Below, piece after piece: positions 1 through 21,263 of a stretch of DNA of 64,000 bases. The translations under genes and the position numbers were made by a program. The DNA is from Populus alba (Eukaryota > Streptophyta > Magnoliopsida > Malpighiales > Salicaceae), in assembly GCF_005239225.2 (NCBI RefSeq), contig NC_133284.1, positions 52,174,697 to 52,238,696 on the forward strand. Reading direction: 5' to 3'. The first letter of the stretch is position 1; every line of letters begins with the position of its first letter. The notes under the pieces are model-generated. The model saw only the letters and a program-made list of their open reading frames with translations. It did not search any database and was not told where the DNA came from.

Positions 1-23
1 CTTTTATACCAAAGCTGAAATTT

Positions 24-218
24 GAGGTCCCTTCTGGCGACCTCCATTGATGAATATCGAAAACGAGACCCCTTCTGGCGATCTCAAACAACTTGGAATC
101 CCATCTGGCGATTCCTTTTATTCAAAGCTGAAATATGAGGTCCCTTCTGGCGACCTTCATCGAAATACGAGATCCCTTCTGTCGATCTCAACAACTTGGA
201 ATCCCATTTGGTGATTCC
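24..218 (-). repeat. Hairpin-repeat array, copy A part
   Basis: Six short inverted repeats spaced about 30-45 bp apart. The first has stem arms GAGGTC (24-29) and GACCTC (39-44) around the 9-nt loop CCTTCTGGC. Others start near 65 (GAGACC/GATCTC), 96 (GGAATC/GATTCC), 138 (GAGGTC/GACCTT), 169 (GAGATC/GATCTC, loop CCTTCTGTC) and 198 (GGAATC/GATTCC, loop CCATTTGGT). Stem sequences differ while their complementarity is kept. The array continues leftwards outside the window. Confidence 0.85.
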
Positions 219-1324
219 TTTTTACCGAATGCTGTCCATGTCGTTCTTCCTGCTGGCAGGGTTTGAAAACCATTATCTTCTCTTCTTGTTGTTCTAGAAT
301 CAACTCAATGATTCTTTTCTTCGTCCATAATCTTGTTGGAATGCGCTACGATCTCCTCCTGTAACGATCCAAAAAACATATATGCAATGATTTATGATTA
401 GATGCAATGCATGCATTCATACCTGGTTTTGAAACATAGGTCCCAGCCTCTTCTTCTAGTTCATGAGACTCCCTCTTAACATGAACTTGCTTTTGAAGTC
501 GTATGCTGGACTTATCTCTCGTGTTGCCTATCATATTCTTGGAGAAGAAGTCTTTGACTTTCTTCAAGTAGTTCTTTTCTCAAAATGTATGACTTGTATT
601 TGCCTCTCTGTCATGCTTTTGTCAAATGTTTTAGCTTGGTTTTCAAATCGTAGGCTTTCGTAAAACTTTTCATAAAACATCTCGTCTTGCCCCCAGTGTA
701 GGGGTGCGATCCTAGTCTGGGTTTTTATATAGAGAAGAAATTCATTTCGACTCAAAACAAAACCACCAACAAAAAACTCTTTAGAGAGTGAAAGGACAAT
801 AATGATGTGTTTTTTTTCAAAAATGCACATTGTTTAGGATTGATAAACTCTATTTTTGTCTTGAAAGAAAATTTACAGGTGATGTATCAATTCATTATGT
901 TATCCAGAGGTGAGGTTGTATTTCAAGGGTAGCTTTTCTTAAATTTCATATTAAACCATTTTATGATACTTTATTTGTAACCACTCAACTTGTTCCAAAA
1001 GTGCATAATCTCATCATTTATTTAAAGAAAAGGTAGGCTCAAAGACAAAACACAAAAACTGGCTGACAAAATAAGCTCTGAGCTCTGAATGCTCACTAGA
1101 GAAAATAAAAGCAAAGACAAAAGCATGCTAAGGCAAATAAAGTTGTTTTACATTTTGAAAACTACGAGAAGTTCTTGGATCAACCCGTTCTGAAACTTCT
1201 TCTAGTGTGTGGAAAGTCAACCGAGGCAATGCTTCATCTTCCTTCCCCACTTGCGTTTCCTTGTCTTCTCCTTCGATCTCGCCTTCTTCATTATTGACGA
1301 CTCTTGACCAAGGTTTTCCAACCT

Positions 1325-2756
1325 TTATCCCCTATCACTTTTGTCATGACCAGGCAATGGATTTGAACTGATATTGGGTGCGTCTTCAAATGACACCCAT
1401 CCTATCTTGATGAGCTTCAACAACTTGTTCTTGAAACCATAGCACGTTTCAAGACAATGCCGGGAATACCAGCATGGTACTCGCAAGTCAAATCAGGCTT
1501 ATACCAGATGGGGAATGGTGGCTGTAGTGGTAATGTAGGGATAGGAGCTATTTGTCCAATGCTCAGTAGTTTGGCATATATGTCCTTTAGAGGCATGGGT
1601 AATGGCGGTAGTTGTTCTGAAATGTATCTTGGGTTTGGTCTTTGGTGGTTGTTTTGGGTGTTTGACTGGCCATTTGCTCGATTAGGGGAAAAAGGTTTGT
1701 TAAAGTTTATGTGGGCCACATGGGAGGTAGGTATTTGTGGGTTATATGAATCCGTTATCTTGTCATTGGACCCACCTTCGAAGTTGTTAACGGGACCTTT
1801 CAATTTTCTTCCAAAAAAAACATTTGTCTCCGATGGCTCAATTATGCGTCCAACTTTAATCCCCTGCTCTATTCTTTCCGCTATGCGTATAGCATCATAG
1901 AAATGTTGAGATGAGCTACCCATTAAAATGCTCATAGTAGGGTGCCTTGAATGTGTTGGCGAACAAAGTCACCATCTCCGTTTCTATCAAAGGGGGTTGC
2001 ACATGCATGGCCTCGTCCCTCCATCTTTGCGCATAAGCCCTTACTGATTCTTGGCTTCTCTTTTTCCATTGACATAAGGCTCATTCGATCTGGAGCAATT
2101 TCCAAATTGAACTTGTATTGCTTAAGGAAAGCCTCAACTAAATCCTTCCATTTCTTGATCTTGGCATTATCCAACCTCATGTACCAACTTAGCGCCGACC
2201 CCGATAGACTATCTTGGAAAAAGTAGATCAGTAACTTATCGTCATGAATCACCTCAGCCATCTTATTGCAATAAGATCGAAGGTGAGTGTTTGGGCATTC
2301 CAACCCAGTGTACTTTATAAACTCCGGAATCCTAAATTTTTTTGGTACCGTGATGTTTGGTACCAAGCATATTTCAGACGCTCGCATGGGGTCAAACCAG
2401 TCATTTCCCTCGACTGCTCTTAACCTTTCTTCCAAGGCTGATATCTTGTCATCGTTCATAAATCTGGTGGACCTATTATCGGGAGGCCCTTCCACAGTGA
2501 TGTGAGCTTGAGGGGGCTGAATGGGAATGGTAGGTGCAAAGTGCTGCCCCGTCACTGAATCTGCCCCCAAGTTCTGAGATGCCCCCGGAACATGAACTGA
2601 TGGTGCTCCTATATGTGGTTGGGTAGATGTTCCCTCCCCATTCTTGGCTCTTAAAAATTGCTCAAGCAGACTGGTCAGTCGAGAAACTTCATTTTTCACA
2701 GATTCCAACTCGGTCTGGTAGTGCGACTCTAATTGAGCTCTTTCTTCATTTTCCAT
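1325..2756 (-). pseudogene. gag: Retrotransposon gag (Ty3/gypsy type), copy A, frameshifted
   Basis: The frame starts at the ATG at 2756 (MENEERAQLES) and runs 274 codons to 1932, then resumes in another frame to about 1325. The N-terminal part is a short coiled coil (residues about 5-40) followed by a Pro/Gly-rich linker. The central retrotransposon-gag domain follows, with IPEFIKYTGLECPNTHLRSY, SLSGSALSWYMRLD and WKDLVEAFLKQYKFN. The second segment has GSSSQHFYDAIRIAERIEQG and a degenerate zinc-knuckle-like CEYH...C region. The break near 1932 is where copy A reads ccttgaatg and copy B ccttttgaatg, so it is private to copy A. Gag would package element RNA into virus-like particles; no pol follows it. 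Confidence 0.8.
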
Positions 2757-3320
2757 TCTTGATCTGGACCGGGTTTGGTGGACTCTGGATGTAGGACCTA
2801 TGTTTCACGATCTGTAATGCATATGATAACAAAATGCGTGATGAAAATGTGATGCACAAGTGATGTACGATGAGTATAACATTATTAATCTTGATGCAAA
2901 TAAGATACATAACCTAAGGACAAACTCTATTTATTAAGTGATAGTGGGTAAGTTTTCTATCTGGTCTCGAAGGGTCTCATATATGCCCAGTGACGTTCTT
3001 CGTAAAGAAGTATGGGGGCGTTGCTAGGAACAGTTAAGACACGTATGTCCACCATTACCAAGCAGGCACTCAGATATGAGTTGGGTGTTTCACGCATTTA
3101 AACCCTGACCAATAGTCCTAGGGTAAATCGCTAATTCCCCACTTAACTTAAAGCTTGTGTGTGCTTTTCAAAATTAAGGCAAGTGATGCATGAGACAATT
3201 ATATACAATGCATGAATAATATGCGTAAAAAACTAAATACGCAAATAAAAGGAAGGGCATATTAACAATAAACACACAAAAAACCAACAAATCAGACAAA
3301 AACAAAGCTTAGTCTACAAG

Positions 3321-3339
3321 GTCCCCAGTGGAGTCGCCA
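3321..3339 (-). other. Primer-binding site for tRNA-Arg(ACG), copy A
   Basis: On the minus strand, three bases after the LTR ends in CGACA, the sequence reads TGGCGACTCCACTGGGGAC. The complement of the 3' end of plant tRNA-Arg(ACG) plus CCA reads TGGCGACTCCGCTGGGGAT, so almost every position pairs. A tRNA-Arg primer is known from the Tat/Ogre lineage of plant Ty3/gypsy elements. The tRNA sequence is from memory. Confidence 0.75.
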
Positions 3340-4346
3340 TTCTGTCGCACCCCAAAAAAATATACATCTACCCATTTTTCAATTGCGGGTTCGACTGGCG
3401 AATTTTTTTTATTTTTGGTTTTTTGGAGTCGCCACCTAGTATTTTGGTCACTAGGAACCTAACTGGTCTCAGAGATCGGGTACGGAGACTGGTTGCGTAA
3501 AGGGAAGGTATTAGCACCCCAAATACGCCCTACCTAAGGTAAGCTGCATTGTTTTATTATCTGATAAAAACTAAGGTGTTATTATACTTCTAGTCGTTGG
3601 TCTGTTTATGGTTCAAGAAAAATCCTCCTCGGTAAGAAGGTCTTTTATCTTATCGGATAAAAATCCTAACCGTTCTAACGTCCATACCAAAATTTTATTA
3701 ATAATACTTAGGAATACGTTTTACGTATAAATTCGTAATCCCAAATATTTAAAATAAGACAAAAAGATTTTTTTTAGAATTTTTGAAATATTGGCCTAGT
3801 TCTCATGGCTTGAATAAACTGGTTATTAAAGCCAAAATGCATGTTAATACATATATTGTTTTGAAAATTTTCTTTGTTGTATGAAAAATATGATGTTATA
3901 ATATTTATATGTATATATTGGAGAGACTAGGCCGTATTTTTAAAAACAAAAAACAATTTTTGGAAAATATTATTTTTTTATGCTTTGGCGAAAATCAGGT
4001 ATTTTAATACTGAGCTTGTATCCTTACGGTATAAAAATACAACCCAATATTAATCCATTTTGATAAAAATATGCAGAAAAATCAACAACATTTTTAGGGA
4101 CTTTTTTAGAATTTTTTTGAAAGCAAAAACATATTTTATTCTGAAAATCTTTGATGTTTTGACGAAAACCGGGTATTTATAACACTGGTTTTGTATCTTT
4201 ACAGTATAAAAAATACAAACCAGAATTAAAAACATTTTTGACAAACATATGCAGAAAAAATCAACAATATTTTTTATTTTTATTTTTTTCGAAATATTTT
4301 TTTTATATATATAAATACATTTTTTATATATATAACATATATACAC

Positions 4347-4349
<3 letters not shown>

Positions 4350-4395
<46 letters not shown>
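4350..4395. repeat. (AAT)n microsatellite in LTR A
   Basis: About 15 uninterrupted AAT/ATA units, preceded by an (AT)-rich run. The same microsatellite lies in LTR B at about 11850-11892. Confidence 0.9.
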
Positions 4396-4426
4396 TAATA
4401 TAATTATAATATATTTATATATTAAA

Positions 4427-4640
4427 AGGGCTGGGCCGGCCCAAACTAAACTGGGCCGGACCCAGCCCACAAGCGTTGGGCCGACCTCGGCCCAACAAGT
4501 ACCGGGCCGACCTCGGCCCAAAAGTACTGGGCCGAACTCGGTCCAAAAAAATAATTAACCTCGGTATGGGCCGGACCGGCCCAGACCGCCGGACTGGGCC
4601 AGATCTCTCTGGCCCGGTCCACATAATTATGGGCCCAGAC
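4427..4640. repeat. GGGCC-rich palindromic tract in LTR A
   Basis: An island of GC-rich sequence in an AT-rich LTR. It is built from repeated palindromes such as GGGCCGACCTCGGCCC and GGGCCGGCCC at about 20-40-bp spacing. Because TGGGCC and its complement recur, it carries many matches to the site II (TGGGCY) class of plant promoter elements. It lies downstream of the LTR TATA box in element sense, so it would be in the transcribed leader and could fold strongly in RNA. The matching tract in LTR B is about 11930-12140. Confidence 0.75.
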
Positions 4641-4954
4641 AACATCTGGCCCAGAGGAATTAAAAAAAACGCAGGGGGGGGAATTATTTCCCCCCCTCGT
4701 CCCCTGCATGCAGAACGCCTCTGCATGCAGGAGACGAAATTTAAGAAACAAAAAGAAAAAAAATGTGCAGGGGGGGAGAGAAGCGTACCTGGCACGGCGG
4801 AGACGACGGCTTGGTGGCGGTGCTGCTGCGGAGACGGTGGCAGCTTGGCTTACGGACGGCGGTTCAGGCGGTTTTCTCTCTCTCTCCTCCCTTCGGGTCT
4901 CTCTCTCTCTATTCCTCTCGGGGTCTCCCTTTTTTCCTCTCGGTTTTTCTTCTC

Positions 4955-4962
4955 TTTTTATA
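4955..4962 (-). promoter_or_regulatory. TATA box of LTR A promoter
   Basis: The minus strand reads CCTATAAAAAGAGAAG here, followed downstream by a long CT-rich leader. This divides the LTR into U3 (about 4963-5852) and R/U5 (3343 to about 4930). The same box is at 12471-12479 in LTR B. Confidence 0.55.
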
Positions 4963-5148
4963 GGGGCAGAACCGTGGGGGACCATCGGGTGTAACGGATG
5001 GTCGGCCAACATCTAAAGGTGGTGGGGGCGAGGAGAGAGAGAGGCGCGGGATGGTTTTTGAAAACGGTTTTCTTCTTCTGTTGCAGGTTCGGGGGGGAAA
5101 AGAAGAAGAGGAACAGTGTCGTTCAAAAACGACACCGTTCCGGTCCTC

Positions 5149-5179
<31 letters not shown>

Positions 5180-5852
5180 GAAACGGCGTCGTTTTGGATA
5201 AAACGCGCCGTTTCATTTAAATGGCCAAACTTCAAATCAGTCCCAAATTTGGTCCCCGCCCCTCTTGTTGGCCGCCTTTTTCACTTTGGTCCTTGGCCTC
5301 TGATTTAAGCAATTGAGCCCCTAATTGATCAATAAACTTTCAATTTCTTCAATTAAGCCCTGAACCGAAAAATTGCAGCCCCTCCATTTACGCGCCTCTT
5401 CCAATTTGGTCCCTGGTTTCGGATTTTCTTTAATTAAATCCCTAATTGGCCTTAAACTTCAATATTTATGCAATTGAGCCCCCTGATTTGACCCAATAAA
5501 TTCCTAAAAAATATATTTTGGCCCAAGAACTTAAATTTTCTCCAAATTAAAGCCCAAATTGGACTTAAAAATCAATTTTTCTTGCCATCAAATCTTCTAT
5601 AAATTCAATCAAAAATCCAATTAAGTCCATAAACATTCAAATTTGGGCTTTTCTCCTCAAAATTCAAATTTTCCTTCTCAATAGGGCTTTCATCCTTCAA
5701 GAATATACTGTCAAAAATTCAATCCTTGTATTTTTAAATTCCTTGACCAATTTTCTGACTTTTTTTTCGGGCGCTTCTGCCTACGGTTTTTTTAACCTCT
5801 TTTGGCTATTTTATTTTATTTTTTTAGGGGGACCCAAAAATGGGTTACAACA

Positions 5853-7032
5853 GATGCCCCCTCTTTATAATACTTACGGAGCATGGGTTTTTGCGCAGTA
5901 AGTGTTATAAAGATAAACCCAAAACGGAACTCCCGAAACTGATATGGTCGAAGCTTGATTTATCTGAAACTTTGTCCTTTACAACAATCCTCCTTAGCCC
6001 AAAACTATGATCCAAACTTAGTCATCTCGAGATCCTTATCCAGCGATCCTCTGAATTATTACTTTAGTTTGATCAACATGGAAATCCATCTGAGATCCCA
6101 TTTGGTGATCTCCTTTAACCTGGAATCCCATTTGGCGATTCCTTTACTCATAACCAATACAAAAATGTGTGTGTGGTCTCTTTTATGATGGTGACCTGCC
6201 CGAATGGAAAAGGGAAAGAGTGGTCTCATTCTTTAGGTGACCTACCCAGAGGGAAGAATGGCCTCATTATTATGGGTGACCTACCCAGGTAAAAAAAAGA
6301 TGAAGAATGGTCTCATTGTATGGGTGACCTACCCAGAAAAATAATGGTCTCATTGTATGGGTGACCTACCCAAGAAAAATGATGGTCTTATTGTATGGGT
6401 GACGAACCCGAGAAAAATGATGGTCTCATTGTATGGGTGACGAACCCAAGAAAAATGATGGTCATTGTATGGGTGACCTACCCAGGAAAAATGATGGTCT
6501 CATTGTATGGGTGACGAACCCAAGAAAAATGATGGTCTCATTGTATGGGTGACCTACCCAGGAAAAAAGATGGTCTCATTGTATGGGTGACGAACCCAAG
6601 AAAAATGATGGTCTCATTGTATGGGTGACGAACCCAAGAAAAATGATGGTCTCATTGTATGGGTGACCTACCCAGGAAAAATGATGGTCTCATTGTATGG
6701 GTGACCTACCCAGGAAAAATGATGGTCTCATTGTATGGGTGACGAACCCAAGAAAAATGATGGTCTCATTGTATGGGTGACGAACCCAAGAAAAGTGATG
6801 GTCTCAATTGTATGGGTGACGAACCCGAGAAAAAAAGATGGTCTCATTGTATGGGTGACGAACCCAAGAAAAGTGATGGTCTCATTGTATGGGTGACGAA
6901 CCCGAGAAAAAAGATGGTCTCATTGTATGGGTGACGAACCCAAGAAAAAAATGATGGTCTCATTGTATGGGTGACGAACCCAAGGGGAAGAATTCTGTAA
7001 ACTCCATGCTTTTCTAAGAAATGGTTTCAATA
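5853..7032 (-). mobile_element. 3' end of copy B internal region, with polypurine tract
   Basis: On the minus strand the sequence immediately before the TGTTGTAACC border of LTR A is AAAGAGGGGGC (5856-5866), a good polypurine tract for plus-strand priming. Between it and the tandem arrays (about 5900-6150) are two more hairpins of the same family: GAGATC/GATCTC at 6092-6112 and GGAATC/GATTCC at 6122-6142. No pol reading frame is present. Confidence 0.75.
6150..6990. repeat. About 39-bp minisatellite, roughly 20 units
   Basis: Tandem units of 37-40 bp containing GGTCTCATTGTATGGGTGAC. Two subtypes alternate irregularly: one continues CTACCCAGG, the other GAACCCAAG. Both keep the 5-bp inverted repeat TGGGT...ACCCA, around a 5-nt loop GACCT or GACGA. 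The units at the left edge are more diverged and those at the right most uniform. The array sits inside the retroelement between the hairpin array and the 3' LTR. Confidence 0.9.
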
Positions 7033-7700
7033 TGAGGTCCCTTCTAGCGACCTTCCTTGATGAATGTCGAAGTACGAGATCCCTTCTGGCGATCTCAAAT
7101 AACTTGGAATCCCATCTGGCGATTCCTTTTATTCAAAAGCTGAAATATTAGGTCCCTTCTGACGACCTCCATCGAAATATGAGATCCCTTCTGGCGATCT
7201 CCTTTAGCCAAACAACTTGGAATCCTATCTGGCGATTCCTTTTATACCAAAGCTGAAATTTGAGGTCCCTTCTGGCGACCTCCATTGATGAATATCGAAA
7301 ACGAGACCCCTTCTGGCGATCTCAAAACAACTTGGAATCCCATCTAGCGATTCCTTTTATTCAAAGCTGAAATATGAGGTCTCTTCTGGCGACCTTCATC
7401 GAAATATGAGATCTCTTCTAGCGATCTCCTTTAGCCAAACAACTTGGAATCCCATCTGGCGATTCTTTTATACCAAAGCTGAAATTTGAGGTCCCTTCTG
7501 GCGACCTCCATTGATGAATATCGAAAACGAGACCCCTTCTGGCGATCTCAAACAACTTGGAATCCCATCTGGCGATTCCTTTTATTCAAAGCTGAAAATA
7601 TGAGGTCCCTTCTGGCGACCTTCATCGAAATACGAGATCCCTTCTGTCGATCTCAAACAACTTGGAATCCCATTTGGTGATTCCTTTTTACCGAATGCTG
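7033..7700 (-). repeat. Hairpin-repeat array, copy B, about 230-bp higher-order units
   Basis: Roughly three higher-order units, each with about six 21-bp inverted repeats. Three stem classes recur in fixed order around the loop CC(T/A)TCTGGC: GAGGTC/GACCTC, GAGATC/GATCTC and GGAATC/GATTCC. Connecting sequences such as CATTGATGAATATCGAAAAC and CTTTTATACCAAAGCTGAAA are also repeated. In element sense (minus) the loop reads GCCAGAAGG, and the GAGACC/GATCTC variant becomes a G-T wobble rather than a mismatch. The unit at 7465-7690 is the one continued in copy A at 1-225. Confidence 0.9.
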
Positions 7701-8805
7701 TCCATGTCGTTCTTCCTGCTGGCAGGGTTTGAAAACCATTATCTTCTCTTCTTGTTGTTCTAGAATCAACTCAATGATTCTTTCTTCGTCCATAATCTTG
7801 TTGGAATGCGCTACGATCTCCTCCTGTAACGATCCAAAAAACATATATGCAATGATTTATGATTAGATGCAATGCATGCATTCATACCTGGTTTTGAAAC
7901 ATAGGTCCCAGCCTCTTCTTCTAGTTCATGAGACTGCCCTCTTAACATGAACTTGCTTTTGAAGTCGTATGCTGGACTTATCTCTCGTGTTGCCTATCAT
8001 ATTCTTTGGAGAAGAAGTCTTTGACTTTCTTCAAGTAGTTCTTTTCTCAAAATGTATGACTTGTTATTTGCCTCTCTGTCATGCTTTTGTCAAAATGTTT
8101 TAGCTTGGTTTTCAAATCGTAGGCTTTTTCGTAAAACTTTTCATAAAACATCTCGTCTTGCCCCCAGTGTAGGGGTGCGATCCTAGTCTGGGTTTTTTAT
8201 ATAGAGAGAAGAAATTCATTTCGACTCAAAACAAAACACCAACAAAAAACTCTTTAGAGAGTGAAAGGACAATAATGATGTGTTTTTTTTCAAAAATGCA
8301 CATTGTTTAGGATTGATAAACTCTATTTTTGTCTTGAAAGAAAATTTACAGGTGATGTATCAATTCATTATGTTATCCAGAGGTGAGGTTGTATTTCAAG
8401 GGTAGCTTTTCTTAAATTTCATATATAAACCATTTTATGATACTTTATTTGTAACCACTCAACTTGTTCCAAAAGTGCATAATCTCATCATTTATTTAAA
8501 GAAAAAGGTAGGCTCAAAGACAAACACAAAAACTGGCTGACAAAATAAGCTCTGAGCTCTGAATGCTCACTAGAGAAAAATAAAAGCAAAGACAAAAGCA
8601 TGCTAAGGCAAATAAAGTTGTTTTTACATTTTTGAAAACTACGAGAAGTTCTTGGATCAACCCGTTCTGAAAACTTCTTCTAGTGTGTGGAAAGTCAACC
8701 GAGGCAATGCTTCATCTTCCTTCCCCACTTGCGTTTTCCTTGTCTTCTCCTTCGATCTTTCGCCTTCTTCATTATTGACGACTCTTGACCAAGGTTTTCC
8801 AACCT

Positions 8806-10238
8806 TTATCCCCTATCACTTTTGTCATGACCAGGCAATGGATTTGAACTGATATTGGGTGCGTCTTCAAATGACACCCATCCTATCTTGATGAGCTTCA
8901 ACAACTTGTTCTTGAAACCATAGCACGTTTCAAGACAATGCCCGGGAATACAGCATGGTACTCGCAAGTCAAATCAGGCTTATACCAGATGGGGAATGGT
9001 GGCTGTAGTGGTAATGTAGGGATAGGAGCTATTTGTCCAATGCTCAGTAGTTTGGCATATATGTCCTTTAGAGGCATGGGTAATGGCGGTAGTTGTTCTG
9101 AAATGTATCTTGGGTTTGGTCTTTGGTGGTTGTTTTGGGTGTTTGACTGGCCATTTGCTCGATTAGGGGAAAAGGTTTGTTAAAGTTTATGTGGGCCACA
9201 TGGGAGGTAGGTATTTGTGGGTTATATGAATCCGTTATCTTGTCATTGGACCCACCTTCGAAGTTGTTAACGGGACCTTTCAATTTTCTTCCAAAAAAAA
9301 ACATTTGTCTCCGATGGCTCAATTATGCGTCCCAACTTTAATCCCCTGCTCTATTCTTTCCGCTATGCGTATAGCATCATAGAAATGTTGAGATGAGCTA
9401 CCCATTAAATGCTCATAGTAGGGTGCCTTTTGAATGTGTTGGCGAACAAAGTCACCATCTCCGTTTCTATCAAGGGGGTTGCACATGCATGGCCTCGTCC
9501 CTCCATCTTTGCGCATAAGCCCTTACTGATTCTTGGCTTCTCTTTTCCATTGACATAAGGCTTCATTCGATCTGGAGCAATTTCCAAATTGAACTTGTAT
9601 TGCTTAAGGAAAGCCTCAACTAAATCCTTCCATTTCTTGATCTTGGCATTATCCAACCTCATGTACCAACTTAGCGCCGACCCCGATAGACTATCTTGGA
9701 AAAAGTAGATCAGTAACTTATCGTCATGAATCACCTCAGCCATCTTATTGCAATAAGATCGAAGGTGAGTGTTTGGGCATTCCAACCCAGTGTACTTTAT
9801 AAACTCCGGAATCCTAAATTTTTTTGGTACCCGTGATGTTTGGTACCAAGCATATTTCAGACGCTCGCATGGGGTCAAACCAGTCATTTCCCTCGACTGC
9901 TCTTAACCTTTCTTCCAAGGCTGATATCTTGTCATCGTTCATAAATCTGGTGGACCTATTATCGGGAGGCCCTTCCACAGTGATGTGAGCTTGAGGGGGC
10001 TGAATGGGAATGGTAGGTGCAAAGTGCTGCCCCTCACTGAATCTGCCCCCAAGTTCTGAGATGCCCCCGGAACATGAACTGATGGTGCTCCTATATGTGG
10101 TTGGGTAGATGTTCCCTCCCCATTCTTGGCTCTTAAAAAATTGCTCAAGCAGACTGGTCAGTCGAGAAACTTCATTTTTCACAGATTCCAACTCGGTCTG
10201 GTAGTGCGACTCTAATTGAGCTCTTTCTTCATTTCCAT
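8806..10238 (-). pseudogene. gag: Retrotransposon gag, copy B, multiply frameshifted
   Basis: Counterpart of the copy A gag. The start region (10238) has lost one T relative to copy A, so the initiating frame breaks at once. Further indels fall near 10020, 9830, 9470 and 9330. The central gag domain (YTGLECPNTHLRSY, SGSALSWYMRLDNAKIKKW) is intact at about 9500-9830, and the segment broken in copy A near 1932 is continuous here (VRQHIQ...YYEHLMGSSSQHF). Most differences from copy A are single-base gains or losses in homopolymers. It is either a young pseudogene or an intact gene disturbed by consensus errors. Confidence 0.75.
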
Positions 10239-10805
10239 TCTTGATCTGGACCGGGTTTGGTGGACTCTGGATGTAGGACCTATGTTTCACGATCTGTAAT
10301 GCATATGATAACAAAATGCGTGATGAAAATGTGATGCACAAGTGATGTACGATGAGTATAACATTATTAATCTTGATGCAAATAAGAATACATAACCTAA
10401 GGACAAACTCTATTTATTAAGTGATAGTGGGTAAGTTTTCTATCTGGTCTCGAAGGGTCTCATATATGCCCAGTGACGTTCTTCGTAAAGAAGTATGGGG
10501 GCGTTGCTAGGAAACAGTTAAGACACGTATGTCCACCATTACCAAGCAGGCACTCAGATATGAGTTGGGTGTTTCACGCATTTAAACCTGACCAATAGTC
10601 CTAGGGTAAATCGCTAATTCCCCACTTAACTTAAAGCTTGTGTGTGCTTTTCAAAATTAAGGCAAGTGATGCATGAGACAATTATATACAATGCATGAAT
10701 AATATGCGTAAAAAACTAAATACGCAAATAAAAGGAAGGGCATATTAACAATAAACACACAAAAAACCAACAAATCAGACAAAAAAACAAAGCTTAGTCT
10801 ACAAG

Positions 10806-10824
10806 GTCCCCAGTGGAGGTCGCC
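10806..10824 (-). other. Primer-binding site for tRNA-Arg(ACG), copy B
   Basis: Same site as at 3321-3339, with one extra G (TGGCGACCTCCACTGGGG on the minus strand). It lies four bases beyond the CGACA end of LTR B, as in copy A. Confidence 0.7.
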
Positions 10825-10828
10825 ATTC

Positions 10829-11844
10829 TGTCGCACCCCAAAAAAATATACATCTACCCATTTTTCAATTGCGGTTCGACTGGCGAATTTTTTTTATTTT
10901 TGGTTTTTTTGGAGTCGCCCACCTAGTATTTTGGGTCACTAGGAACCTAAACTGGTCTCAGAGATCGGGTACGGAGACTGGTTGCGTAAAGGGAAGGTAT
11001 TAGCACCCCAAATACGCCCTACTAAGGTAAGCTGCATGTTGTTTTTAATTATCTGATAAAAACTAAGGTGTTATTATACTTCTAGTCGTTGGTCTGTTTA
11101 TGGTTCAAGAAAAATCCTCCTCGGTAAGAAGGTCTTTTATCTTATCCGGATAAAAATCCTAACCGTTCTAACGTCCATACCAAAATTTTATTAATAATAC
11201 TTAGGAATACGTTTTACGTATAAATTCGTAATCCCAAATATTAAAATAAGACAAAAAAGATTTTTTTTAGAAATTTTTGAAATATTGGCCTAGTTCTCAT
11301 GGCTTGAATAAACTGGTTATTAAAGCCAAAATGCATGTTAATACATATATTGTTTTGAAAATTTTCTTTGTTGTATGAAAATATGATGTTATAATATTTA
11401 TATGTATATATTGGAGAGACTAGGCCGTATTTTAAAAACAAAAACAATTTTTGGAAAATATTATTTTTTTTTATGCTTTGGCGAAAATCAGGTATTTTAA
11501 TACTGAGCTTGTATCCTTACGGTATAAAAATACAACCCAATATTAATCCATTTTGATATAAAATATGCAGAAAAATCAAACAACATTTTTAGGGACTTTT
11601 TTAGAATTTTTTTGAAAGCAAAAACATATTTTATTCTGAAAATCTTTGATGTTTTTGACGAAAAAACCGGGTATTTATAACACTGGTTTTTGTATCTTTA
11701 CAGTATAAAAATACAAACCAGAATTAAAACATTTTTGACAAACATATGCAGAAAAATCAACAATATTTTTATTTTTTATTTTTTTTCGAAATATTTTTTT
11801 TTATATATATAAATACATTTTTTATATATATAACATATATACAC

Positions 11845-11892
<48 letters not shown>

Positions 11893-12659
11893 TATAATAT
11901 AATTATAATATATTATATATTAAAAGGGCTGGCCGGCCCAAACTAAACTGGGCCGGACCCAGCCCACAAGCGTTGGGCCGACCTCGGCCCAACAAGTACC
12001 AGGGGCCGACCTCGGCCCAAAAGTACTGGGGGCCCGAACTCGGGTCCAAAAAATAATTAACCTCGTATGGGCCGGAACCGGCCCAGACCGCCGGACTGGG
12101 CCAGAATCTTCTGGCCCCCCCGGTCCACATAATTATGGGCCAGACAAACATGCTTGGCCCAGAGGAATTAAAAAAAACGCAGGGGGGGAATTTATTTCCC
12201 CCCCTCGTCCCCTGCATGCAGAACGCCTCTGCATGCAGGAGACGAAATTATAAGAAACAAAAAGAAAAAAAAATGTGCAGGGGGGAGAGAAGCGTACCTG
12301 GCACGGCGGAGACGAAGGCTTGGTGGCGGGTGCTGCTGCGGAGACGGTGGCAGCTTGGCTTTACGGACGGCGGTTCAGGCGTTTTCTTCTCTCTCTCCTC
12401 CCTTCGGGTTCTCTCTCTCTCTATTCCTCTCGGGGTCTCCCTTTTTTCCTCTGGTTTCGGTTTTCCTCTTCTTTTTATAGGGCAGAACCGTGGGGGACCA
12501 TCGGGTTTGTAACGGATGGTCGGCCAACATCTAAAGTGGTGGGGGCGAGGAGAGAGAGAGGCGCGGGATGGTTTTTGAAAACGGTTTTCTTCTTCTGTTG
12601 CAGGTTCGGGGGGGGAAAAGAAGAAGAGGAACAGTGTCGTTCAAAACGACACCGTTCCG

Positions 12660-12698
<39 letters not shown>

Positions 12699-13404
12699 GA
12701 AACGGCGTCGTTTTGGATAAAACGAAATACGGTACCGTTTTTCATTTAAATGGCCTCAAAACTTTCAAATCAGTCCCCCAAATTTGGTCGCCCCGCCCCT
12801 CTTGTTGGCCGCCTTTTTCACTTTGGTCCTTGGCCTCTGATTTAAGCATTGAGCCCCTAATTGATCAATAAACTTTCAATTTCTTCAAGTAAGCCCCTGA
12901 ACGAAAAATTGCAGCCCCCTCCATTTTTACGCGCCTCTTCCAATTTGGTCCCTGGGGTTTCGGATTTTCTTTTAATTAAAATCCCTAATTGGCCCTTAAA
13001 CTTCAAATTATTTATGCAATTGAGCCCCTGAATTTGACCCAATAAATTCCTAAAAAAATATATTTTGGCCCCAAGAACTTAAATTTCTCCAAATTAAAGC
13101 CCAAATTGACTTAAAATCAATTTTTTCTTGCCATCAAATCTTCTTATAAATTCAATCAAAAATCCAATTAAGTCCATAAACATTCAAATTTGGGCTTTTT
13201 CTCCTCAAAAATTCAAATTTTTCCTTCTCATAGGGCTTTCATCCTTCAAGAATATACTGTCAAAAATTCAATCCTTTGTATTTTTAAATTCCTTGACCAT
13301 TTTCCTGACTTTTTTTTTCGGGCGCTTCGCCTACGGTTATTTTCCTAACCTCTTTTGGCTATTTATTTTATTTTTTTAGGGGGACCCAAAAATGGGTTAC
13401 AACA
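10829..13404 (-). mobile_element. LTR B, 5' LTR of copy B
   Basis: 2,576 bp, collinear with LTR A; the extra 66 bp is spread over many small insertions, mostly homopolymer extensions. In element sense it starts TGTTGTAACCC at 13404 and ends GCGACA at 10829. TATA box at 12471-12479. The right flank at 13405 (atcaa...) is non-element DNA, so this is the outer right border of the tandem. The paired target-site copy would be beyond the left edge of the window. Confidence 0.9.
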
Positions 13405-15786
13405 ATCAATATGAATGTTTTGATTAATAGTTTGAAAGGGCAGGCATAAACCTCAGAGTGTAAGGTTATTGATCCTGAATCCTTTAAGGAAAGGGTTTAA
13501 TAAATGCACCGTCAGTGTCATGATTGGTATTAGATGTTGAATCTTGTTAGTTGTCTGGTCCTACTCGATCAATGGCGGAAAGAAATGTTTGGATAATAGA
13601 TTTTAGGGGAGGCAAGATTATAGTGCAAAGCTTGTGTTAGGACACAATTCCATTCATATTAAGTTTGGATAATAGATTTGATTCCATCAAAAATGAAAAA
13701 AAAGAAAGAGATAAATTAGTTTTAAATTTCCATTTTTGTTGTAACTTTTGATTGTCTTAGTATAATGAGTGTACAAATAATATTTTAAATTAATTGGGAA
13801 AGGAAGCACCATTTTGAAAATTGTGTATTTTAATTGCTTGAAACTAATATGTTTTGTTATATATCTATACACACACACACACAGAGACGGTTTAGCTTTT
13901 AAAAAAAGGAAAAATTCGAAATCAAGTATTCAATTGCAAGCAAATTTTGAGATGCAAGGACTGAAGTCTGAATTTGCATGATTTTAAAAAATACAAAGAC
14001 TTAAATGCATATTTGTAAAAAATTGAAAATCCCTGGGGAGGCTGCTACCCTCCTCTGTCTATGAAAGTAGTTGCCACTGTACTTGATGTTATCATATCAA
14101 AAGCCTCTTTGTATAAGTTTGTAGGCTTTACCAATGTCAAGAACACGATTTGTCCACACCTACTCATGTTGTTCAATTGATAAAACCATCCCGGAGGCAG
14201 TGAGATTGAGGTTAACTAGGCTTGAAAATGTGAATGATGTAATTGATCTTGCTGAAATAGCATTCTCTGTCATTGGTTTAAATGCTTGTTTCAAATAGAG
14301 TTTCAAATGGCAGACATTAAAACTCCCAATATAACTCTAACCCTGAACCCTTGACAGAGGTGTATAAAGGATGCTTAATATGTGATTAATGCTGTCAGAT
14401 TGGTCTTGTTTGATATTACATGCCAAAGCCTCTCTTATAAATCCCTCTCTTCCTGAACCAATTTGAAGAAAACAATTTACTTTTTACCTTCTTGTCTGGT
14501 TCATAAATAAGTTACTCTTTAGCTGACATTGAGGTTCGGACTGAGGGGTCTTGAAATTCAAAGAAATCTCATGCAAAAAGAGTGTTCTTTGTAAGAGGAA
14601 ATGGAGTGTAACAGGAACTATGTTAAGAAATCAATTGTTTACTGGAGTTGGGCTGTGAAGTGGTTTTATGTCTTTGGTTGCTGATGGAATAAGAATCAAG
14701 TATTGGTAACCTGACTTGTTTGGAAGCAAGATTGTCAAACTTTTAGGTAGAAGGACACTCTAATAGTTGCATTATGGTGTGTTCTCTGGTATTGTGGTGG
14801 TTTCGGCTTGATGCAAAAGAATAAATGAAAATCTGAAAAAAAAATATTTTAATAAAATTACTTTTGCAAGTGCTCCACATACTTAGCATTTGGATCACAT
14901 TTTAAATATCATCCCTTCATTTGTGTGTTGATCCTCCCTACATTGTCTGTTACGGGCAACATAGCATTTCTATTTGGTAGTATGAAGTAGAAACTACTAT
15001 CATGTGCATAAACTAAGTAGATCCCTCTGGAGATTTTATTCTACATAACACACTATTTGATTGTGAGAGATAAAATGAAGCCTGAAAGAGAATTGTTGTT
15101 TGATGGATTGACATGTGCCAGTTCAACTTAAATGTTTTGTACTCAAATAAGACAAGGTAACCTCTACTTTTCATCGCGGTTAAAATTGTATTTGAGTGCG
15201 TTTTAAAGTTGTGTTTGACTTGAAAAAAATATTAAATTTATATATTTTTTTAATATTTTTTAATAATTTTGATGTGCTAATATTAAAAATATTAAAATAT
15301 ATTTTAATATATATTGCGTTACAATACCAAACACACAGAGTTAGTGCACAAGGGAAAACCCTGTACAACTTGTCCAACCAAAATATAGAAATCTTTCCGA
15401 TAACTGCATGCAGCACAGTTTGTCTAGGACCCAGTATTTACAATATTAGGTCTGTATGGATAGTTAGGCTCATAAATAACTTCTCAAAAACGTGTTTTTG
15501 AACAGGGAAAGCTCCTACTGAGAGCTCCTTGTGGTGAATAAAACTGTTAGTGCAATGGATTTTGCTTGGAGTGTACAGAACACCCATGTTAGAGTTGGAA
15601 GCACATTCACCTTGAGGGTTAAACTGACATCTGCTTTTCTTGCATTGGTGTTCCATTTTGGACCATACTTGGTTACTTTTGACTAAGCAAGAGTACCTTC
15701 AAGGAACAGCTTTGTTTCATCCACCTTACCTGGTTTTGTGTTCTCATTCTGATTGACTTAAAATCTGTCGTTTCATGATAATGCAG
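13405..15786 (+). other. Non-coding stretch before the thioredoxin reductase exon, possibly its intron
   Basis: No open frame with recognisable similarity was found. It ends in a good splice acceptor (tttcatgataatgcag, 15786). It contains one MITE-like insertion (about 15170-15340) and ordinary unique-looking sequence with scattered stops. If the exon at 15787 belongs to a live gene, this is intron, and the whole retroelement tandem could lie inside the same intron. Equally, the exon may be an isolated duplicate. Confidence 0.45.
15170..15340. repeat. MITE-like AT-rich insertion
   Basis: Starts near GCGGTTAAAATTGTATTTG and ends with TTGCGTTACAATACCAAACAC, around a core of ATTTTAATATATT runs. 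The ends are imperfectly inverted. The 'GTTTGGTATTG...' end type with a TTTTTAATA-rich core recurs elsewhere in the window (near 22300, 57960, 59860) and resembles short hAT-type MITEs common in poplar DNA. The family assignment is from memory. Confidence 0.45.
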
Positions 15787-15857
15787 GCTGCATGGCAGCG
15801 CTAGATGCAGAGCATTACTTGCAAGAGATTGGATCCCAAGAGGGCAAAAGTGATTGA
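15787..15857 (+). pseudogene. NTR: Last exon of NADPH-dependent thioredoxin reductase (orphan or partial gene)
   Basis: After a consensus acceptor (ataatgcag) the frame reads [12 protein letters not shown], then [11 protein letters not shown] and a TGA stop (15855-15857). This matches the extreme C-terminus of plant cytosolic/mitochondrial NTR (NTRA/NTRB type), whose last intron lies just before this Gly-Cys-Met. NTR is an FAD enzyme that passes electrons from NADPH to h-type thioredoxins. No other NTR exon (FAD-binding, CAVCDG redox motif, NADPH-binding) is seen in the 13.4-15.8 kb stretch. Either the rest lies left of the retroelements, making an intron of more than 15 kb, or this is a duplicated 3' fragment. 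Sequence after the stop looks like an ordinary 3' untranslated region to about 16200. Confidence 0.7.
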
Positions 15858-17083
15858 CTATCTAGGATATGAAAGGGTACTCGGGAATCTGAATAACAGA
15901 GTTACCCCAGATGTGCTGCAGACTTTGATTGCATCGTCGCATGTGTACAACATTAGCACAATATTATCAGTCCCTCCATTACTCGATTTGTAAGTGGAAT
16001 TTGTTGGACATAATTTATGTTTCCACCTTTTCTTCCGTCTGCTGTGAACTTATTTGGGAAGCTTGTGTCCTAACACATGGTGCTCCAATTGGAATTAGAC
16101 CGATCAAAGCTTCCAAATGATGCTTTGCTGAGGCCTTCTGTTTGTCATCACTGACACTGAATGTCTTCACTTCGATGCACCTGAGTTTCCCCATTTTGAA
16201 CTAAAAACATAATATTGTTGGAATCATAATTATGGTCATGTTTTGGGCTTGCATCGATTTGCTTTTTCAAAAGAAAAAAATATTAAAAAAATATTATTTT
16301 AGATGGGAGTTTGATCTTGACCTTGACCTTGACCTGGTCAATTAAGCTGGTTATGTTGTGGAGTGGATGCCATCCTTTCTAGTGGGCTGATATGCAAAAC
16401 GCAAGCAACAAGACCTCATCATAACAGATTGTTGAGGTTTAAACCATGCACGCTGCAGCATGTATTGTATAGCAGTGAAGAACTGATAGCCATTAACATC
16501 AAGGTGGTAAAAAACCCTGCAATATTATGATCAACTTTAGGTTTTGAAGATCCCAGATTGAAGAAGATGATTTCTCCCATTATCCTTTTGCTATAAACTG
16601 TGACTGAAGTAGTTTAACACATGGTAAGCAGTATTTTAGCCTCCATAGATTCAGAAGTTTTCCACATTGATCCTTGTAGTTTAAGATTCTGTAGTGTCAA
16701 CTCTGTAGTTTTGAGAGAGTTCCAATCTAGCCCCAAGGAGCCAGCAGATAGCTTATGAAACCTAGAGGAGAAGTACCCATTCTTTCTCCCATCTGCTTTC
16801 ACTTTTCAACTTTTCCCAAGCTCTCATACATGTGATAATAAATTTTCTAAAATTCGAAATATAATTACAAAACTGGCCTATAATAATCACACCGAAACTT
16901 CTGGAAGCTCAAGGGTTGACATTGGGTATTTTAGAGGAGATGTAAGGTGGAGCTTCCCTGACCCAATAGGGTCTGAAATGTAATTTCCCCGTCAATAAAT
17001 TTATACCGTGTGAATGCTCCTACGCTGGTTTCCATCATTTGTAAATAGTATAAATATCTTAATCCGATAGCTAGAAAGAGTAA
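15858..17083. other. Intergenic stretch, including probable NTR 3' UTR
   Basis: No supported gene. 15858 to about 16200 is a plausible 3' UTR. A short GACCTT direct repeat is at about 16315-16336. At about 16630-16990 is text such as 'ccttgtagtttaagattctg...' that resembles the non-coding part of a dispersed repeat, but no ends could be fixed. Confidence 0.4.
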
Positions 17084-17156
17084 GCCGTCTTAGCTCAGCT
17101 GGTAGAGCGCATGGCTTTTAACCATGTGGTCGTGGGTTCGATTCCCACAGACGGCG
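17084..17156 (+). tRNA. tRNA-Lys(TTT): tRNA-Lys (anticodon TTT)
   Basis: A 73-base cloverleaf without intron. The acceptor stem GCCGTCT (17084-17090) pairs perfectly with AGACGGC (17149-17155), followed by discriminator G. The D arm is GCTC...GAGC. The anticodon arm CATGG/CCATG holds loop CTTTTAA with anticodon TTT. The T arm GTGGG/CCCAC has loop TTCGATT. Internal A (TAGCTCAGCTGG) and B (GGTTCGATTCC) boxes are intact, and T runs about 15 bases downstream can end RNA polymerase III transcription. It decodes AAA/AAG. Confidence 0.97.
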
Positions 17157-18492
17157 GAGCATAAAATATATGTCTTTTTCTTCCATCTTTTTTGAAAGCC
17201 ATTGATTAGTAGCCGTCACTAAGGGTGGGGGAGGGGGGGCTTACCCTAGTTCATAACTTCATATATATCTAGTTAATTGGAGAGGTGGGGTTGCCCTATC
17301 ACCTTCATCCCAGCAGGACGGGTATGCCTAACAGCCACCGCCATCTCACAATGTCAACCTTGCAATCCTACAAGAGATTTGAATTTTTTTTTTTTTTTAT
17401 ATATATAAAATTTGCAATCATCTTCAATTTACTTTAAGAAGTTATTTGAGTTTAAAACTTATATAGATTTATATTATTTATATACTTAATTTTTAATTAA
17501 ATAAATAAAAATAATGAGATTTGAACTCGTAATTGCTTTGTTATTAACGTTCTAATATTATATTAAAAAATCATTTCAACCCAATAACTTAAGTTATGAG
17601 AATTTGAGATATGATTTATATTATTCTCAACACTAAAATAAAATATCTAATGGATATATTTACAAATTAGATTGGCAAAATCAAGTCAAAGAAATAATCC
17701 GAACTTGTTAAACAAGTTTTACATTGAAAACGAGCATGATTTTTCTCCCGAATGTTAGACGTGAAGCTGAAATTTTATCAAAGCATTCTATAGACCATGT
17801 TACATGCAATATGTGTTACAGTAGGAAACGCCAACAAATCAATGATGCCCTAACGCCAAAGCCGATTAATCTCACCAGCTTGTCAGTGCAAATTGCTAGT
17901 TTTTGCTGGGAATGCAAGTGATGCAATTTGATCAAAAAAGAAATCTCCCAGATGGGATTTTTTTAGGTTCAAAATGAGTGATCACAGTGCTAAGAACATA
18001 CACAATCAAGGGTTTTTTGGACCAGCTAGGGCTGATTTTTCATGTGCTTAGCCTGGTAAAATGCAAAGTTACAATACAGACAACAGGCACTTGAAACAGA
18101 TCCAAATCTCATTAATAGATGCTCTCACCTAAAGTTAATCCAGATCCAAAGTACAATTAACAAGATAAATTAACTTTAAGAGATCACATTTTTGGCACAT
18201 AGAGAGCCTCCACAATTGGCATATCATGCAAGGGACAGTGCTAAAAACAACCGATTATGGCTCCACTATCCCTTTTAAAAAAACTCACAAATGGAAGCAT
18301 CCTGGTAAATCCTGGAAAGAGACCTATCAGAGCCACATGATTCCAGCAATGTGAACTGGCCTTGTTTATTAACTAGTTGCTCCACATGGCCATCTACTTG
18401 TTTGTCCCCTCAACACACTTTCTGTCTAGATTTTAATATTTCCCACTTTCTTACTGAAGATTTATTTTTGCTTCTTCATTGTAAGAAATATT
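17157..18492. other. Intergenic stretch with a SINE-like fragment
   Basis: No gene seen. On the minus strand at about 17505-17640 there is a tRNA-derived-looking stretch: a 'gagatttgaactcg' box-B-like motif and 'atcatttcaacccaataacttaag', phrases that recur in dispersed plant repeats. Polyadenylation and the 3' UTR of the HMGR gene are expected within about 18200-18492. Confidence 0.35.
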
Positions 18493-21263
18493 TTAGGAAG
18501 CTATCTTTGACACATCTTTGCTTGATCTGTTGTATTTCATGTGGCTCTTTACAAGCTGACCAGCTGCAATTGCAGACATGAGGGACAGCTCTCCTGCCAA
18601 AACAGAACCAGCAACGATAGCAGCCAAGAGTCTTGAGTTTGATCCTGGAGACTCTTTGCTTGCGCCCTTTACTCCAAGCAGGTTCAAGCAAGCTGACTGA
18701 GATGCTAGTTGGGTGCCACCTCCAACTGTGCCCACCTGAACCAAATAGATGATGCATAACAAAAAAGAGAGTTAGAGTTTTGCTCTTGATGTGATCAGAA
18801 CTCAAATTATAACACAGTTTTTTGATTGCATGACTATTAATTTACACATGGCCTTCCTCTCTTAAGGCCTTCCTCTTCAAGTTACAAGTGGTACCTTGAT
18901 GAACTAAAATAAGGTTCTTTATATATCATGATCATTGTTAGGAAACCTGACCTAGCCAGCAAGTTAACATGGGCCTTGGCCGGGTTTCAAATAAAAAAAA
19001 TTCAGGTTTATATTGGCTCCGTTAAATCTAGACAAATTGTCGGGTCAACCCGAAACTTGAGTTGAATATTGAATCAACAGATTGGAAATGGGCTTATTAG
19101 CTAGGCATTTTACCTCAATGGAAGGCATGGTGACCGAGATATGAAGGTCCTTTCCATCATTAACAGCTTCCATCATAGTAATGCAGTGAGAGCTCTCAAC
19201 ATTCTGAGCAGGATCCTGTCCTGTGGCTATATAGACTGCAGTGACAATATTGCTGGCATGGGCATTAAACCCACCAAGAGCACCAGCCATAGCTGAACCT
19301 GCAAGGTTCTTAAGCATGTTAAGCTCCACCAAGGTATCTATATTGGTCTTCAGTACCTTCTGAACCACCTCTTCCTTTATGATTGCCTCACATACAACTG
19401 ACTTTCCACGCCCTTCAATCCAATTTACAGCTGCAGGTTTCTTGTCTGAACAGAAGTTGCCTGAGGAACTCAAAATACAGATTGAAAATACCGAATCATT
19501 AACTGTATACATCAACCGATAATGAATCCAAAAATGGAAATTATGCAGCACGGCGGAGGGTTTACCAGAGATGCCAATGATGTCCATGTCAGGAAAATCT
19601 GTTTGAAGATAATCAAGTACATTTTGGACTCCTTTGGAGACCATGTTCATTCCCATAGCATCACCTGTGCTGCAACTAAACCTCATGTACAAATTCTTTC
19701 CTGCCACTGCACATTTAATGTTTTGTAGCCTTCCAAATCTGCTTGACCTGCATATCATCCACCACGTCAAGTATTTGTGCCCGTGTGAAATAAAAAATTC
19801 AACCATAATTTTCCTTTTGGAATATAAAAATCTTCCCGACAGAAAGAAAAACTTGTTGTAGTAGATAAAATATAAAATAGGCGGATAATGGTTAACCCAT
19901 GCAAAATACTAATGAAGAAAATTAGAACCCATCGACATCAATAAGTTTTCATTCACCAACAACAAAATAATGCCAAAAGAGCAAGAAAAGTTGTGTCAAG
20001 ACACTCTTTAAAAAAGCAAAACCAAATCAAACAGACTTTGGCAATATCCAAAATCATATGGTACCAACTTTCTAGCTCCTTGGCTGGATAGCCTTGGAGA
20101 TGGACAATTTCCAATTTCCAATTTCAAAAAATCAAGAAATAAATCATTGTAGGCCAAAGAAGACTAAAAAGAAGGATTAAATTTGAAAAGGGAAGATTGA
20201 TTAATTAGTCTAATATCTGCTTTCTTAAAAAAAAATAGGAAAAAGAGGAGAAAATCAAGAACCTGTTGAAAGCAACAGAAAGAGTGTCGAAATTAGCAGG
20301 ATCCTCAACAAAGAACTTCAACTCAGCAGCCCTTTTTGCGGTCCCAAACCTGACAACAGGAGCTCTAGTCATGGCATCTTTAAGCAACATAGAACTAGCC
20401 CCTCCTGATGCATAAATAGCCTTGCACCCTCTATTTGTAGAGGCCACCAAGCACCCCTCAGTCGTAGCAATTGGGACCATATACTCCGTCCCATTAAGCA
20501 ACAGTGGCCCTGCAATTCCCACAGGAATCTGCACAAACCCGACAGGCATCTCACAACACTGCCCCAATATTGACTCATAATCAAACCCTTCTAATGGCAA
20601 TCCCTCCATAGACCTCCCTGTCATCCTCTGAAGCGCTTCACGCCTAATAGCAGCTGCCCTTTTGCAATCTCCAATCTTTGATTCAAGAGAATACGAAGGA
20701 ATAGTCCCAGATACCACTCCTTTGATAACCTCCTCGTCGTCACCTGATAAAAATGGTTCTTGAATCGTTGGTGCAACAACTCTTTCCCTCGAAACAGGGG
20801 CAAGAGTGCATGCAAGTGATTCTGCAGGAGTGCAACCACCACCATTTTTCTTGATCATAACATTATTATCTTCCTCAACATCCCAAGAATCTTGAGACCC
20901 TCGAGAGATAAAAGATTGAACAACGCCAATCCCAAAGAAACCAAGAAGATAAATAAAAGAAGCAGCCAAACAAACTACCCCAGCGATTTCAGGGAAAGTG
21001 ATGATATGAAGGGGAGTGGAGTTTCGGATCTTTTCGCGCCAACGATGGAGAAGGAAGTAGGCCACAGAGAAAAATATCCCGAAGAACAAACCATTTGTTA
21101 AGTAAAGAGGTAATGGGAGTGCATCCGATGCCTTTACAGACGTCGGAGGCTGTAAATCACGATGATCATGGTGGTGACGATGGTACGGTTTCAGGGTGAG
21201 TTCGCCAGCATGTGTGTCCATGCTGACGTCGGATTTGGCTGGACGCCGGCGGACCTCGTGCAT
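18493..21263 (-). CDS. HMGR: 3-hydroxy-3-methylglutaryl-CoA reductase, four exons
   Basis: Reduces HMG-CoA to mevalonate with two NADPH; rate-limiting step of cytosolic isoprenoid synthesis, in the ER membrane. Exons: 21263-20263, 19747-19566, 19460-19114 and 18735-18493, all GT-AG, giving 590 residues, usual for plants. N-terminus has an Arg cluster (RRRP, 5-8), an odd His-rich run (28-34) and two membrane spans (about 51-72, 86-118). The variable linker ends near 165; the catalytic domain follows with [25 protein letters not shown] (Glu269), [20 protein letters not shown] (Lys401), GQDPAQN (Asp477), [11 protein letters not shown] and [12 protein letters not shown] (His575). Ser581 matches the SnRK1-type regulatory phosphorylation site. 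The start MHEVRRRP is preferred over an upstream in-frame ATG (21497) because translation upstream is low-complexity and a TATA box lies between. All key residues are present; it looks functional. Confidence 0.96.

Follow-up and report, generated by a model that had tools for sequence, protein, structure and literature searches.

The window (the whole stretch of 64,000 nucleotides of Populus alba DNA analyzed here) contains a minus-strand retroelement with two LTRs, a primer binding site (PBS), a polypurine tract (PPT) and gag as the sole recognized coding region. The element is part of an LTR-internal-LTR-internal tandem, in which positions 1-5852 repeat positions 7465-13404 with 97% identity. 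An array of short hairpins lies between the coding region and the PPT and 3′ LTR, that is, in the 3′ untranslated part of the element. The features of the locus are the following.

1932..2756, minus strand: gag frame of the neighboring tandem unit (Retrotrans_gag, PF03732)
3330-3339: primer binding site of the neighboring unit, TGGCGACTCC
3343..5849, minus strand: 3′ LTR of the array-bearing unit, downstream of the array, starting with TGTAACCC and ending with GGTGCGACA
5850..5866, minus strand: polypurine-tract-like (purine-rich) sequence adjoining the 3′ LTR
6092..6112, minus strand: PPT-side hairpin of class B
6122..6142, minus strand: PPT-side hairpin of class C
6211/6307..6984, minus strand: second tandem array, with a 38-base unit and a short TGGGT/ACCCA hairpin with a 5-nt loop
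7034..7684, minus strand: main array of 18 hairpin units, A-B-C six times, each with a 6-bp stem and a 9-nt loop, with spacers in between; delineated from the sequence and its higher-order repeat (113/226 bases)
9405..9887, minus strand: gag frame of the array-bearing unit (Retrotrans_gag, PF03732)
10815..10825, minus strand: primer binding site, starting with TGGCGACCTCC, which follows the upstream LTR
10829..13401, minus strand: 5′ LTR of the array-bearing unit, upstream of gag, 94.8% identical to the 3′ LTR

The matches of the two gag frames to PF03732 (E-values 3.1e-05 and 2.8e-05; 24.6 and 24.7 bits) are slightly over the curated cut-off of 24.1 bits. Among the ATG-initiated frames of at least 150 amino acids in positions 1-16000, two correspond to these gag matches, one adjoins gag and has no Pfam match, one lies within an LTR, and no pol was recognized. 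The sequence TGGCGACTCC, a putative primer binding site that may be complementary to tRNA-Arg, adjoins the LTR in the neighboring unit and in 18 of the 20 loci from L010 to L029; loci L023 and L026 yielded no LTR pair. In a comparison of the stretch upstream of the window with the initial 20 kb of the window, positions 1-5889 of the former (L009) were found to repeat window positions 14091-20000 with 99.5% identity, so that a larger recent duplication might embrace the element. Elsewhere in the window, positions 41129-41293 consist of 2.2 copies of a 74-base unit that are 91% alike.

The main array is built of hairpins as described in an earlier note on this DNA: 18 units of 6 + 9 + 6 bases at positions 7034-7684, with three classes of arms, A (GAGGTC/GACCTC), B (GAGATC/GATCTC) and C (GGAATC/GATTCC), that follow one another in the order A-B-C six times. 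The units are not arranged head to tail as the contiguous 21-base repeat envisaged in that note; they start 30-43 bases apart, and the array is organized in higher-order repeats of about 113 and 226 bases. The two further hairpins outside the array are indeed present (class B at 6092-6112 and class C at 6122-6142), and so is the variant GAGACC/GATCTC, which occurs twice (7303 and 7529) and pairs as G-U on the element strand. The 20 window units include 13 with six Watson-Crick pairs, two with five such pairs and the element-strand G-U pair, and five with a fault in the outermost pair. The claim on wobble pairing holds for the variant itself; the five faulty units comprise four with an A-C mismatch on the element strand and one with another mismatch.

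The 14-base core TCGCCAGANGGGAT is found six times in the window (five times in the array and once in the neighboring copy) against 0.00 expected, and a search of the genome (416 Mb in 96 contigs) for the 15-base core RTCGCCAGANGGGAY yielded 6611 occurrences (3245 + 3366) against none in the reversed control, so the array is not a chance product. In total, 852 units were detected across 40 arrays of 17 to 38 units each, with the A-B-C order unbroken in 31 of the 40. A second family (e.g., L049 and L065) has its own unit order and the arm pairs GAGGTC/GATCTC and GGAATC/GATTTC, each with one element-strand G-U pair. A coding function of the array appears unlikely, as the 226-base repeat length is not a multiple of three. 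An Rfam search of window positions 1-16000 at E-values up to 10 produced 38 matches, all below the gathering scores and none within 5233-10314, where the arrays are located; two LTR repeats (4369-4527 and 11864-12026) matched HgcG at 30.1 and 25 bits, respectively, against a gathering score of 77, probably by chance. In the hairpin of the 38-base array, the inner pair is T-A in the family of the window and C-G in the other loci compared (the window against L048, L049 and L065), with C-A intermediates, one form of which is present in 22 copies in 21 loci, so that the hairpin provides no strand signal for the element strand.

An array of this type is also present in at least one pol-bearing relative. 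In a relative on contig C6 (L047), which has hairpin units in its 3′ region and gag in a 1116-aa frame, positions 25575600-25578000 encode RVT_1, RT_RNaseH and then RVT_3/RNase_H domains (E-values of 5e-30 for the reverse transcriptase and 4.5e-22 for the second RNase H). In five more elements, all on contig C1, hairpin sites lie approximately 8.1-8.5 kb downstream of gag; the gag frame is 1116 aa long in four of these elements and 924 aa in the fifth. Among 11 loci taken by the distance from gag alone, four (L047, L082, L083 and L086) contain units; the other seven (L077-L081, L085 and L087) have none within the probed stretch, which in L077 still includes pol RNase H sequence, suggesting that the probe was perhaps placed too close to gag. 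All those of the 120 gag matches listed (of 433) that carry an organism name come from Populus, and no gag relative in a viral contig was confirmed. The presence of the array in a pol-bearing relative, as predicted from these domains, is compatible with mobilization of the gag-only elements in trans and is no demonstration of it.

The genome searches scored 40 of 481 and 141 of 2374 candidates, so the copy counts are lower bounds and the family sample is uneven. Similarity to the window array was the criterion for loci L003-L046. Loci L048-L056 were taken from the listing of the RTCGCCAGANGGGAY core (the places listed are the first ones of the 6611, all at the start of contig C1), L057-L076 according to the pairing state of pair 4, and L047, L077-L083 and L085-L087 by the distance from gag. 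Because units were detected by likeness to the three class forms, strongly changed units would be missed.

Judged by its sequence, the window element is a gag-only Tat/Ogre-like LTR element. The likeness to this lineage lies in the Retrotrans_gag domain, in the pol-bearing relative with a reverse transcriptase, an RNase H and a second RNase H, and in the location of the arrays before the 3′ LTR. Tandem repeats in the untranslated 3′ part of Tat/Ogre elements are on record (PMC7004042, PMC6317226), and a 2009 work by Macas is cited for them. Such repeats are described as hypervariable (PMC7004042), Retand elements carry tandem arrays between pol and the 3′ LTR (PMC11963269), and hypervariable 3′ tandem repeats are reported to be common in Tat elements at large (PMC7004042, PMC11963269). 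The second RNase H (aRH) is described for the Tat lineage and is placed between RH and INT in Ogre and Retand (PMC6317226). Tandem repeats in the 3′ regions of Tat/Ogre and Retand, the second RNase H and TR-GAG elements are already known. In contrast to the hypervariable Tat/Ogre arrays, the 21-base hairpin, with its common core, is found in more than one family, and the available text of the Tat/Ogre account (PMC7004042) contains no mention of a hairpin, palindrome or secondary structure. Retand resembles the present family in the long 3′ region with tandem repeats and in that some of its members are non-autonomous; it is further characterized by antisense frames and a TRP28 domain, and the accessible portion of its description does not mention a hairpin, stem or secondary structure (PMC11963269). 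TR-GAG elements likewise have two LTRs and no recognized coding region other than gag, and one is reported to be able to transpose; however, that element belongs to a copia family, and hairpins are unmentioned in the part of PMC8704663 available to us. Among the papers listed, the titles and the starts of abstracts contain no apparent description of a hairpin array of this kind.

One explanation of the array invokes no selection at all. A single old palindrome would have been duplicated into three classes and amplified, its arms being matched by template switching or gene conversion (quasi-palindrome correction) and everything else being inherited, with long arrays in the 3′ untranslated region arising by themselves, as they do in Tat/Ogre elements. 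The common occurrence of hypervariable 3′ repeats in Tat elements favors this explanation, which we regard as nearly as probable as the reading favored below, and much of the variation among the units bears on it. For this analysis, 840 units from the 40 arrays were used (12 of the 852 were dropped). The loop, which the earlier note described as nearly fixed, departs from CC(T/A)TCTGGC in 10 of the 20 window units and is represented by 37 types among the 840 units; it is in fact more variable than the arms, with 441 of the 7560 loop sites (5.8%) off the class form compared to 274 of the 10080 arm sites (2.7%). The proposition that both arms change together is borne out between the classes, which differ by three pairs, each fully compensated, and hardly at all within them: a single one of the 263 within-class departures is a compensated double change. 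In pairs 2-5, covariation within classes does not rise above that in 500 shuffled sets except weakly in class B (the observed value was reached by 500 shuffles in class A, 6 in B and 184 in C). A further compensated form, GAAATC/GATTTC, is found 47 times genome-wide (21 times with loop A, 25 with loop T and once with loop G); for the 25 with loop T, derivation from class C is more likely. The fully compensated class differences and this further form speak for selection on pairing; that the old class differences are only three, the later compensated types few and the covariation within classes slight is what would be expected without it.

The comparison of 25 arrays aligned place by place gives a mixed result. 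Variants common to at least two copies were detected at 17 of 162 loop sites, 5 of 216 stem sites (four of the five in the outermost pair) and 5 of 274 spacer sites, whereas variants confined to a single copy number 12, 10 and 21, respectively. Per site, shared changes avoid the stems relative to the loops (Fisher p = 0.0013), which argues against the absence of selection; in the window's family, to which these 25 arrays belong, the spacers are as quiet as the stems (p = 0.76), which argues for it. When shared variants are weighed against single ones, loops differ from the rest (p = 0.006) but not from stems alone (p = 0.20). Of the 17 shared loop changes, 16 are C/T or A/G exchanges, and all are at the two ends of the loop.

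Folding predictions do not distinguish between the strands. On the element strand, the predicted fold of each class form has a stem of six pairs, followed by a bulged G, two more C-G pairs and a loop of four bases; the opposite strand yields a similar fold, which is equally good in class C and slightly better in A and B. Of 190 distinct units, 119 fold better on the element strand and 21 equally well on both, in a sample that includes loci chosen for the G-U pair. Compared with 20 shuffled sequences each, the window array folds better on both strands (z of -7.4 for the other strand and -5.3 for the element strand), so whole-array folding does not choose a strand, and the good folding of both is in line with the explanation without selection.

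A comparison of the strands makes use of the fact that the two arms are reverse complements of each other, so that neutral mutation without a strand bias should yield G-U and A-C pairs equally, whereas selection for pairing in the RNA would tolerate the former. Counted over all pairs of the 840 units, the numbers are close (121 G-U and 107 A-C), that is, to the letter, the outcome that the earlier note had named as evidence against its reading. An asymmetry is found by position: the inner pairs 2-5 favor G-U on the element strand, and A-C is mostly located in the outermost pair. In the family of the window, the outermost pair has 12 G-U and 102 A-C cells and pairs 2-5 have 95 and 8; in loci L047-L076, the respective numbers are 19 and 19, and 149 and 15. 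Pair 6 also favors G-U and was left out because its C precedes a G and may mutate by methylation. Because the cells repeat inherited changes, they were clustered by flanking sequence in 80 scanned sources, 73 of which contain units (1234 units kept, 17 of 1251 dropped).

Across these 73 loci, the 246 G-U and 23 A-C cells in pairs 2-5 reduce to 21 G-U and 2 A-C clusters shared between loci and 26 and 18 single-locus clusters, altogether 47 against 20 (p = 0.0013 against equality). In the outermost pair, there are 7 shared and 10 single G-U clusters and 8 shared and 16 single A-C clusters (17 against 24). The outermost and inner pairs thus differ (Fisher p = 0.0046 in all loci and 0.016 in the 44 loci introduced below), subject to the qualifications that the split was chosen after the data had been seen and that the clusters are not fully independent; merging by eye the clusters that stem from one inherited change leaves about 14 shared G-U events against 2. 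In the 44 loci that were chosen without regard to the hairpin pattern (900 units, nearly all from the window's own family, with L048-L076 left out), pairs 2-5 have 102 G-U and 9 A-C cells, which correspond to 8 against 1 shared clusters (p = 0.039), 11 against 7 single-locus clusters and 19 against 8 clusters overall (p = 0.052).

The loop served as a control for mutational bias. It shows 44 C>T clusters at positions 2 and 3 and 49 G>A clusters at positions 5, 8 and 9, omitting position 1 (21 G>A clusters), which adjoins the C of the arm; per position, this amounts to 22 C>T against 16 G>A, a mild lean in the same direction (p = 0.17 alone). After correction for this lean, the G-U excess in all loci persists (p = 0.004 for shared clusters, 0.036 for all clusters and 0.039 for the events merged by eye), and in the 44 loci it is not significant (p = 0.17 for shared and 0.24 for all clusters). 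The explanation without selection is in line with the result for the 44 loci; the excess across all loci speaks against it, considering that arm-to-arm correction produces Watson-Crick pairs rather than G-U and is strandless. Genome-wide, the G-U form of pair 4 occurs 905 times and the A-C form 6 times; most of the G-U sites probably represent one widespread family, given that those listed have loop T in all but four cases. No bias is seen genome-wide for pair 3 of class B (6 G-U against 8 A-C), and the A-C form of pair 2 in class C, counted alone, is present at 22 sites.

Taking these lines of evidence together, the reading that we favor, with a probability of roughly 0.38, is that the array consists of RNA hairpins in the 3′ untranslated region of a poplar Tat/Ogre-like family, the stems of which are kept paired on the element-sense RNA and perhaps provide protein docking sites for packaging. 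Selection on the RNA pairing of the stems is plausible and not proven; that selection is the cause of the pairing pattern of the stems is what we infer, and the location and repetition of the hairpins suggest, short of proof, docking sites used in copying or packaging the element. On the element-sense RNA, the stems would stay paired while the loops drift more, and each hairpin would most likely be a weak protein site. The Gag protein of the element is the first candidate ligand because the gag frame is the only recognized coding region in the window element; a host RNA-binding protein comes second. Many copies in a row could make the RNA easy to capture for packaging, and a gag-only element that retains the array might thereby use the machinery of pol-bearing relatives. 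That hairpin repeats occur in the 3′ untranslated region of gag-only members as well as of a pol-bearing relative would fit multiple protein docking sites. An extension of this scheme, which we consider unlikely, is that the 17 to 38 hairpins per array are a selected address label shared across a large group of poplar retroelements, with Gag of the pol-bearing elements collecting its own RNA along with that of gag-only relatives and with the loops tuning family specificity. As a comparison of workings only, the yeast Ty1 and Ty3 elements also have RNA regions near their ends that are needed for mobilization with proteins supplied in trans; those regions were mapped by deletion, and a review calls the packaging structures not clearly defined, whereas the present case concerns a long array (PMC4974528, PMC5371799).

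The position of the array between the coding region and the PPT, and pairing on the RNA strand, if real, would fit equally well a role on the host side, in which the hairpins stabilize the 3′ end, modulate translation or splicing, or either supply or obstruct small-RNA silencing without involvement of Gag. This role has no particular support, with no Rfam match in positions 7033-7700 at E-values up to 10, and appears rather improbable to us. Even less credible is a function at the DNA level, in which extruded cruciforms or folded single-stranded cDNA would stimulate strand transfer or recombination; such a function would account for the tandem arrays as well as the tandem element in the window and could accommodate the varying number of units between arrays, but it is not obvious why pairing in DNA would favor G-T over A-C on one strand. 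Mimicry of the acceptor end of a primer tRNA (GAGGTC-GCCA resembling the PBS complement) with a role in priming was rejected as highly improbable: although TGGCGACCTCC of the window copy matches class A units on the opposite strand, this match rests on one extra base in that copy in place of the TGGCGACTCC typical of the family, a genome-wide pattern search for the predicted tRNA-like hairpin gave 0 sites, and 89 of 1000 shuffled units reach the observed match.

Returning to selected RNA hairpins as the favored reading, the consequences would reach beyond this locus. The tandem repeats that Tat/Ogre elements carry in their 3′ region are chiefly known for seeding satellites (PMC7004042). If it is true that selection keeps some of these repeats as paired RNA hairpins, such repeats would have a job. 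Plant LTR elements would then offer a natural and testable candidate for a packaging signal, with a possible bearing on how gag-only elements borrow the machinery of others.
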